A stretch of 64,000 nt of DNA from positions 1,426,001 through 1,490,000 of the forward strand of contig NZ_CAMTTE010000001.1 in NCBI RefSeq assembly GCF_947077775.1. Reading direction: 5' to 3'. The notes beneath the pieces were generated by a model that ran no database searches, was not told the origin of the DNA, and saw nothing but the letters and a program-made list of their open reading frames with translations. This document shows, piece by piece, positions 1 to 1,807 of the stretch. Position numbers and translations under genes: made by a program. The first letter of the stretch is position 1; every line of letters begins with the position of its first letter. The DNA is from Salinibacter pepae (GTDB lineage Bacteria > Bacteroidota > Rhodothermia > Rhodothermales > Salinibacteraceae).

Positions 1-16
1 TGAAATTTCTAGCGCG

Positions 17-1045
17 ATGCTGAAAACAAAATCGTTTCCGAGTGTCTTCGAAACCAACACGACCGAGCTGGTCGACGTGGCCGACGGGCTTCTCGAGGGC
101 CTGAAGGTCCAGGTCGATGATGAGCAGTACGTCGTCGGGGACCTTGCCCTCCGCGAGGGGACGGCCCCCCACAAGGGCATCAACAACGCCCCCTCCGACC
201 TCGACTACCGCCTGTTGCTGCGGGCCGGGCTTCTGGTCGCCCAGGCCGGCGGGGCCGACACGCCACTGACGCTGACGACGGGCTTCCCCTACTCGTCGTA
301 CCGGGTCCACCGCCGGAGCGCGGGCACCCTGATTGAAGGCAAGCAGGAAATTGAGTTCGACGGGCGCCCCTTCGGCGAGGGCGAGCATTCGGTCGTGGGC
401 CTGGACATTGCGGACGTGGAGGTCCTTCCGGAGATCGAGGGCCACGTGACGGCGACCCGCGAGGGGGAGGTGGGGGAGGACGATCCCTTCTTCGCCGTCT
501 CGTTGGGGTACGGAACGTTCGAGTCCGTCTTGAGCCTTCCCTCCGGCCCCGTCCAGCGAACGGCGACGAGCGGACACGGGCTCCGCTACGCCACGTCGAT
601 GATGGCCGAGCGGCTCCGGGAGAAGCACTACCTGGACATGCCCACCGAGCACCAGATCGACATGGCGATGCGCCGGGGCACCGTCGTGGCCGGGCGCCAG
701 CGGTACGACCTCTCGGAGCTTCGGCAGAAGGTGCTCCGCGTCTACTACAACGACGTCGTCTCCCCGGCCCTCAAAAAGGCCTTCGACGACAGCGACTTCG
801 GACAGACCCGCAAGATGTACCTCGCCGGGGGCGGCGCGCTCTACACGGAGCTCGTGGACGCCTTCGACGACGAGTTTGGGGACGTGCTCTCCCTGGAGGT
901 GGTGCCGGACCCGCCCACGCACGTGAGCCGAGGGTTTGCGCTCCACGCCGCCGGCGTAAACGGCAAGAGCCCGGACCACGCCGTCGGGCTCGACCTGGGC
1001 AACGCCAACACCTCCGTCACGCTGTTCGACCGGGAGCGCGCGTAG
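17..1045 (+). CDS. ParM/Alp-like actin-family ATPase, possibly 5'-partial, with C-terminal phosphate-1-like motif
   Basis: Actin-like (ASKHA fold) filament ATPase of the ParM/archaeal-actin type, 342 residues from the first ATG. The opening FPSV segment (7-10) and the YVVGDLAL stretch (38-45) match what normally follows the N-terminal phosphate-1 hairpin. A phosphate-2-like loop, SLGYGTFES, lies at 162-170 but has Ser where Asp is usual. The adenosine-type motif LAGGGALY is at 269-276. The last 21 residues carry VGLDLGNANTSV, which looks like the phosphate-1 loop expected at the N-terminus. The frame is open to the window edge, so the start is uncertain; the AT-rich bases before ATG 17 look intergenic. 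It lies 45 bases before a bactofilin gene, suggesting a cytoskeletal pair. Confidence 0.75.
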   Translation: MLKTKSFPSVFETNTTELVDVADGLLEGLKVQVDDEQYVVGDLALREGTAPHKGINNAPSDLDYRLLLRAGLLVAQAGGADTPLTLTTGFPYSSYRVHRRSAGTLIEGKQEIEFDGRPFGEGEHSVVGLDIADVEVLPEIEGHVTATREGEVGEDDPFFAVSLGYGTFESVLSLPSGPVQRTATSGHGLRYATSMMAERLREKHYLDMPTEHQIDMAMRRGTVVAGRQRYDLSELRQKVLRVYYNDVVSPALKKAFDDSDFGQTRKMYLAGGGALYTELVDAFDDEFGDVLSLEVVPDPPTHVSRGFALHAAGVNGKSPDHAVGLDLGNANTSVTLFDRERA

Positions 1046-1090: not shown

Positions 1091-1807
1091 ATGTTCGACT
1101 TTTTTCGACGCTCGACCGACGACGAGGACACCGCCCCCTCGTCGGCCCTCTCGGTGCTCGGGGAGGACACGACCGCCCAGGGGACGTTTGACCTGAAGAA
1201 GGACGACCTCCGGGTCGACGGGATCCTCAACGGGGACGTGACGACCGAGGGGCACGTGCACGTGTCCCGCGGGGGCAGCATCCACGGGGAGATTCGGGCC
1301 GGGTCGATCCGGATCGCCGGCGACGCGGCGGGAATCCTGCACGCGCAGGCGGACCTCGTCGTGCTGCAAACCGCGTCGGTGCACGGCATTCTGTGTGCCG
1401 ACGCCCTGACGATCGAGGACGAGGCCGACTTTGAGGGGGGGCTGTGTGACACCGCGGACCAGATCCCCGCCCTGAAGGACGCCTTCTTCTCCGCCGAGGC
1501 ATACACAATCCCTGCCCTTTCGTCGTCCCCCGACGAGCCCCCGGCCGACTCGTCGGGGCAACAGCCGTCCGAGGCCGCCGAGCGGTCCGTTACGCTCGAC
1601 ATTGAGCCGTCGTCGCCCCCCGAGCCCACCGATACCGGGGAGGAGACCGCATCCTTTCGCTCCCTCCAAGAAGGGGACGGCCTTCCGGAATCCCCGTCCT
1701 CCTCGCCGGCCGCCCCGACGACGGAACCGTCCGACGCCGAGCCCGAGACGCCGGATGCCGAGAACACCGACGACACGGAAGACACCCTCTCCACGATTGA
1801 GTGGTGA
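1091..1807 (+). CDS. Bactofilin (polymer-forming cytoskeletal protein)
   Basis: Bactofilins polymerise without nucleotide into membrane-associated filaments that position cell-wall and envelope machinery. Residues about 29-118 form the typical beta-helix core of short repeated turns: RVDGILNGDV, HVSRGGSIHGEI, GSIRIAGDAAG, TASVHGILCADAL. The N-terminal end MFDFFRR is a short amphipathic, positively charged stretch as found in membrane-targeted bactofilins. Residues 120-238 are low-complexity, rich in Asp, Glu, Pro and Ser, and probably disordered; this acidic tail suits a high-salt cytoplasm. The gene follows the actin-like gene closely on the same strand and is probably co-transcribed with it. 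The family assignment is firm; the cellular job is not shown. Confidence 0.9.
   Translation: MFDFFRRSTDDEDTAPSSALSVLGEDTTAQGTFDLKKDDLRVDGILNGDVTTEGHVHVSRGGSIHGEIRAGSIRIAGDAAGILHAQADLVVLQTASVHGILCADALTIEDEADFEGGLCDTADQIPALKDAFFSAEAYTIPALSSSPDEPPADSSGQQPSEAAERSVTLDIEPSSPPEPTDTGEETASFRSLQEGDGLPESPSSSPAAPTTEPSDAEPETPDAENTDDTEDTLSTIEW

Follow-up and report, generated by a model that had tools for sequence, protein, structure and literature searches.

Actin-Like Proteins and Related Systems

In the actin/Hsp70/sugar-kinase fold, motif order is usually treated as fixed, with the first phosphate loop at or near the N-terminus. The described systems closest to the protein discussed here are the ALP/ParM proteins (PF17989; Dh-cParM1, 8x1i; pCBH ParM, 6ixw and 6izr), which share with it the actin fold, a match to the Pfam ALP_N profile, the adenosine glycines and the catalytic-Glu region, and which give the best fold matches (Z 26-27). 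The protein differs from them in having its phosphate-1 (P1) hairpin at the C-terminus, Ser or Gly at the phosphate-2 (P2) Asp position, and a bactofilin instead of ParR. The archaeal actin homologue Ta0583 (2fsj, 2fsk, 2fsn) is similar in size and fold (Z ~24-25, 281-291 residues aligned), but its segment order is conventional, and its residues 1-18, the P1 hairpin, have no sequential counterpart in our model. MreB also has the actin fold, although the MreB_Mbl matches of homologues of our protein reach at most 13.1 bits, under the cut-off of 27, and none was listed for the protein itself in the Pfam search. Unlike MreB, it has a rotated segment order and no P2 Asp. The same genome encodes a separate conventional MreB (442.6 bits), so the permuted actin does not replace it. 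The Hsc70 D199S mutant (1qqm, so named in its title; 1nge has Ser as well) carries, by engineering, the residue that the permuted family has natively at the same P2 position, whereas Hsp70 is a chaperone of conventional order.

A search of the open literature gave no actin-like protein that is circularly permuted in nature; subscription papers were mostly outside the scope of this search, and we claim no priority. One ParM paper on circular permutation concerns permuted fluorescent proteins, not ParM. A bactofilin operon with an M23 endopeptidase is known (PMC10945521). There, as here, a dedicated bactofilin lies beside a partner gene, but the partner here is actin-like and is not a cell-wall peptidase.

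Segment Order of the Permuted Gene

The window analysed is a 64,000-nucleotide stretch of the Salinibacter pepae genome (C1:1426001-1490000 of 3.63 Mb). At its left end lies a plus-strand open reading frame (17..1045) of 342 codons plus stop, the product of which begins MLKTKSFPSVFE, ends HAVGLDLGNANTSVTLFDRERA, matches ALP_N and is predicted to have an actin fold. This protein is almost certainly a conserved circular permutant of an actin-like protein, with a single copy of the P1 motif. Its N-terminus is what would be strand 3 of a conventional actin: the first strand of the full model (residues 2-8 by DSSP) and the FPSV segment are encoded at 20..46 (+), and a VVGDLA segment that is conserved in the family alignment follows (residues 39-44; 131..148, +). 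Near the other end, as judged from the AF2/DSSP assignments and the alignment ranges given below, the helix that comes last in conventional actins (residues 299-314) and a linker (residues 315-321) occupy 911..979 (+). The linker joins the old C-terminus to the old N-terminus and leads into the relocated P1 hairpin, AVGLDLGNANTSVTLF (residues 322-337; 980..1027, +), which is conserved and has two predicted strands (322-327 and 331-337). Residues 322-334 of this hairpin read AVGLDLGNANTSV. The earlier note had placed a P1-like motif at residues 323-334, and the translation of the frame has it there (VGLDLGNANTSV).

Comparison with family profiles was consistent with a rotation. The native product matches ALP_N with 45.1 bits (cut-off 26.3) over profile positions 17-145; positions 1-16, the P1 hairpin, have no counterpart at the N-terminus, and their counterpart is found at residues 322-337. 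With the hairpin moved to the front, the match grew to positions 1-145 and 54.4 bits, compared with only 47.1 bits for a control in which a scrambled tail was put in front. A homologue rotated in the same way scored 42.2 bits instead of 34.1 and covered the profile fully (1-148); two distant members had no ALP_N match in either native or rotated form. When the native family profile was searched against Hsp70 with hmmsearch, the matching pieces appeared in permuted order (profile 301-339 on chain residues 6-44, 129-185 on 186-244, and 251-313 on 337-400), each of them weak, with an i-E of 71 for the hairpin piece. Against the PDB, rotating the profile made almost no difference to the summed hmmsearch scores (28.4 vs 28.8 bits); since HMMER adds up domain scores without regard to their order, this comparison decides nothing. 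A search of NCBIfam assigned no family to the protein. Haloperoxidase matches, the sole yield of a single-sequence PDB search, were spurious.

Predicted Structure

An AF2 prediction made from 20 aligned family members gave a confident actin fold (pLDDT 87.1, pTM 0.88), and by AF2 and VIA-align together the model has the two lobes of actin. The best Foldseek matches were pCBH ParM, Dh-cParM1 and Ta0583. VIA-align placed model residues 1..317 on residues 23..360 of 8x1i (Z 27.4, rmsd 3.1, 304 aligned), 1..314 on 19..325 of Ta0583 and 1..318 on 24..356 of actin. In every VIA-align row listed, residue 1 or 2 of the model corresponds to residue ~18-59 of the solved chain and the alignment stops at model residue ~312-320; the solved actin-fold chains listed thus all align starting just past their own P1 hairpin. 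That the C-terminal hairpin of the model and the N-terminal hairpin of the target are both left unmatched is expected of a permutant in a sequential aligner.

In the conventional actin fold the sheet order is 3-2-1-4-5, and strand 3, at the edge, pairs with strand 2 only. When the hairpin was omitted from the prediction, strand 2-8 was lost and the pLDDT of residues 1-10 fell from 89 to 64. Since strand 2-8 needs the hairpin and strand 3 has no other pairing partner than strand 2, the difference between the two predictions argues that the hairpin probably lies in the P1 slot of its own chain. Whether the hairpin fills that slot had been put forward in the earlier note as a matter for structure prediction, and the difference, from which the position was deduced, supports this reading and does not refute it. 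The predicted structure is an intact actin fold in which the hairpin lies against strand 3 in cis and would complete the nucleotide site.

Alternatively, the hairpin could be exchanged in trans, filling the P1 slot of a neighbouring molecule, so that only a dimer or filament would have a complete site. The hairpin is carried on a short glycine-containing linker at a free C-terminus, and the fold predicted without it is still confident as a whole (pLDDT 84.6, pTM 0.84), so the body might exist with its slot empty. However, the hairpin has a pLDDT of about 86-91 in the single-chain model and its presence restores strand 2-8, which makes the arrangement in cis sterically possible, and both conventional termini lie in one subdomain. 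We consider exchange in trans improbable.

Active Site

The P2 loop of the protein reads VSLGYGTFE (residues 161-169; 497..523, +), and the most conserved 11-mer of the family overlaps it. In the alignment the loop corresponds to DPGFRTTD of Dh-cParM1 and to SLGGGTFD/DLGGGTFD of Hsc70, with Ser162 (window 500-502) in the column of the P2 Asp. The replacement of this Asp by Ser, suspected in the earlier note, extends through the family: the position is Ser in 19 of 20 aligned members, Gly in the remaining one and Asp in none. Gly at this position was seen in Salinibacter paralogues. A Pro-Glu pair (residues 138-139; 428..433, +) contains the invariant Glu139, which knowledge of the fold places where actins and ParM have their catalytic Glu/Gln, and the glycines of the adenosine motif (GGG, residues 271-273; 827..835, +) are likewise invariant columns. 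The best PDB match of two of our profiles (A4 and A5) was 1nge, an Hsc70 ATPase fragment with SLGGGTFD where the wild type has DLGGGTFD. Mutants of the Hsc70 D199S type bind nucleotide and hydrolyze it poorly. Because the P2 Asp is Ser or Gly family-wide, ATP hydrolysis may be slow or absent in the permuted proteins, a proposal that is about as likely as not.

The same replacement in all members could instead mark a degenerate pseudo-actin that has lost nucleotide binding, serves only as a structural partner of bactofilin and retains the P1 motif as a relic. This reading is also improbable, given that the P1 hairpin, the P2 glycines and Thr, Glu139 and GGG are among the most conserved positions, the last three groups being invariant or nearly so. 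A relic is not expected to be the second most conserved segment, and the 11-mer AVGLDLGNANT ranks 2 of 332 windows for conservation (non-redundant rows), behind the P2 loop.

Homologues and Their Distribution

The homologues recovered, ~44 distinct sequences, belong to Rhodothermota, Balneolota and Bacteroidota. The alignment of homologues that the earlier note had recommended places the C-terminal motif in every complete member and an N-terminal P1 motif in none of the ~44 checked; the motif is therefore not a chance occurrence. A regular expression for the motif missed three full-length homologues, one with a C-terminal extension and two reading GMDIGN. Homologues occur in 12 of 114 genomes of the order and in 23 of 394 genomes of a phylum sample, and 84,980 species genomes, when scanned, yielded 21 loci, all with titles of Bacteroidetes, Balneolales or relatives. 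The closest named homologue, from Salinibacter altiplanensis, is 92% identical. The S. pepae genome also has a 60% identical paralogue (C1:2513231-2514247; L004 5226-6248, minus) with the same layout and break points, and since this layout recurs in homologues from many independent assemblies, a sequencing or assembly artefact was ruled out. The paralogue is followed at 440 bp by a divergent bactofilin of its own.

All ALP_N matches in the 394 phylum genomes (12 in 11 genomes) are of the permuted form, starting at profile positions 15-21, and this sample yielded no ALP_N relative of conventional order. Neither a two-motif (fusion) intermediate nor a conventional sister group was found. The common break points suggest that the permuted form arose once, before the family tree split at its deep forks. 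No relatives turned up in viral contigs or, by tblastn, in 50,697 phages and 72,556 plasmids, and a phage or plasmid origin was rejected for this reason.

Some members have features of their own. In L012/L027 (same record) a polar extension of ~45 residues follows the relocated hairpin, which indicates that the new C-terminus tolerates fusions. In one locus (L026, 1183-4929) the gene upstream of the permuted actin encodes a 1249-residue protein in which pentapeptide repeats make up nearly the whole length (33 PF00805 stretches). A long-branch clade (L061, L062 and L063) has a GIDMGNANT hairpin and a sodium:solute symporter gene downstream (Pfam SSF, checked in L061), with no bactofilin seen.

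The Neighbouring Bactofilin Gene

The permuted actin gene is followed, after a gap of 45 bp, by a bactofilin gene on the same strand (1091..1807, +; PF04519 at window 1151-1441, E 8.4e-21, 74.5 bits against a cut-off of 27.9). A same-strand bactofilin lies downstream in 24 of 42 full-length tree rows, or at least 25 of 43 with the fragment L017; representatives were assigned by Pfam matches, and the remaining rows by BLAST clustering or through near-identical orthologues. Members paired with bactofilin occur to either side of the midpoint root, and in Mucilaginibacter the two genes overlap. The other 18 of the 43 rows, including those of Balneolaceae, Bacteroidales and others, have no identified bactofilin neighbour, so an adjacent bactofilin is not obligatory. 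In three members of one family of the same phylum (L050, L052 and L056), the gene in the bactofilin position encodes a TPR-repeat protein of ~375 residues (Pfam: L050), which is a possible alternative partner.

Bactofilin copy number tracks the permuted actins. Genomes without a permuted actin mostly have one bactofilin gene, three genomes with one permuted actin (G002, G007 and G013) have two, and our genome and those of two sister species, each with two permuted actins, have three. The actin-linked bactofilins are thus extra, dedicated copies, and the operon linkage makes a functional connection between the two proteins likely.

The nearest solved folds are of the ParM type (Dh-cParM1 and pCBH ParM), and the protein could on this account be a plasmid-segregation actin captured on the chromosome. 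We regard such an origin as very improbable in view of the plasmid and phage searches described above and of the neighbours scanned with Pfam, which were bactofilin, TPR, SSF and others, with no ParR-like partner among them.

Start Site and Upstream DNA

Because the window begins just 16 bases before the ATG at 17, the earlier note had kept open an alternative in which the gene extends further left and has two copies of the motif, and the left flank was therefore read from the genome. The preceding gene ends ~230 bp 5' of ATG 17, and the open frame, stop to stop, extends just 25 codons 5' of this ATG (translation QETQPIPPSGNVPPSLSGSLEISSA). No DLGN-type motif was found in frame in this extension or in the ~230-bp flank, and many homologues have an in-frame stop 2-8 codons before the Met. 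The conclusions that the protein begins at the FPSV segment and that the true start is near 17 were thus correct; no suitable start lies upstream, and the argument from unusual codons was not needed. A normal N-terminal P1 loop upstream of a missed start, with the C-terminal motif as a spare copy, has the position of the window edge as its sole support and is refuted by the upstream sequence; the homologue stops and the ~44 homologues lacking an N-terminal motif also speak against it.

A Model for the Permuted Actin

The rotated segment order, the single motif copy, the common break points in homologues and the unchanged predicted fold are together those of a circular permutant. The order, its conservation over the ~44 homologues and the lack of any second copy can be read directly in the sequences. 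The natural permutation that the earlier note had proposed is supported by the upstream flank, by the homologues, by rotation of the ALP_N match and by AF2 with VIA-align. Taken as a whole, with the role and mechanism outlined here, the protein is probably an actin of the ALP/ParM/Ta0583 type that has been circularly permuted in nature.

In this permutant, the P1 β-hairpin (strands 1-2) that is N-terminal in conventional actins would have moved to the C-terminus, where a linker of ~7-10 residues ties it to the old C-terminal helix, leaving strand 3 (FPSV) as the new N-terminus. The change probably arose when the gene was duplicated in tandem and fused, and the outer parts were then lost. We infer that ATP is bound between the two lobes and that the protein polymerizes or switches as other actins do; slow or absent hydrolysis would give a long-lived ATP state or filament. 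Its partner would be its own extra copy of bactofilin, which, to judge from the operon linkage, probably forms a membrane-associated scaffold with it. Such a scaffold could position cell-envelope or polar machinery, apart from the chromosomal MreB, and envelope or polar scaffolding is our best guess at the cellular role. A more speculative and rather unlikely extension is that a hydrolysis-defective permuted actin and a dedicated, nucleotide-free bactofilin filament assemble together into a hybrid cytoskeleton of two filaments, with the free C-terminal hairpin serving as a latch that can be exchanged and depends on nucleotide.

Annotation that relies on motif order can miss or mis-start genes of this kind, as the shortened ALP_N match illustrates. 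The host is a salt-loving bacterium, and many distant Bacteroidota relatives carry the same type of protein. A permutant so widespread and conserved would mean that the actin fold can be opened within lobe I, next to the ATP site, and would let one test on a natural example which connections are important for folding, nucleotide sensing and polymerization. The link with a dedicated bactofilin suggests that the Bacteroidota and their relatives have a two-component cytoskeletal module that is as yet undescribed.
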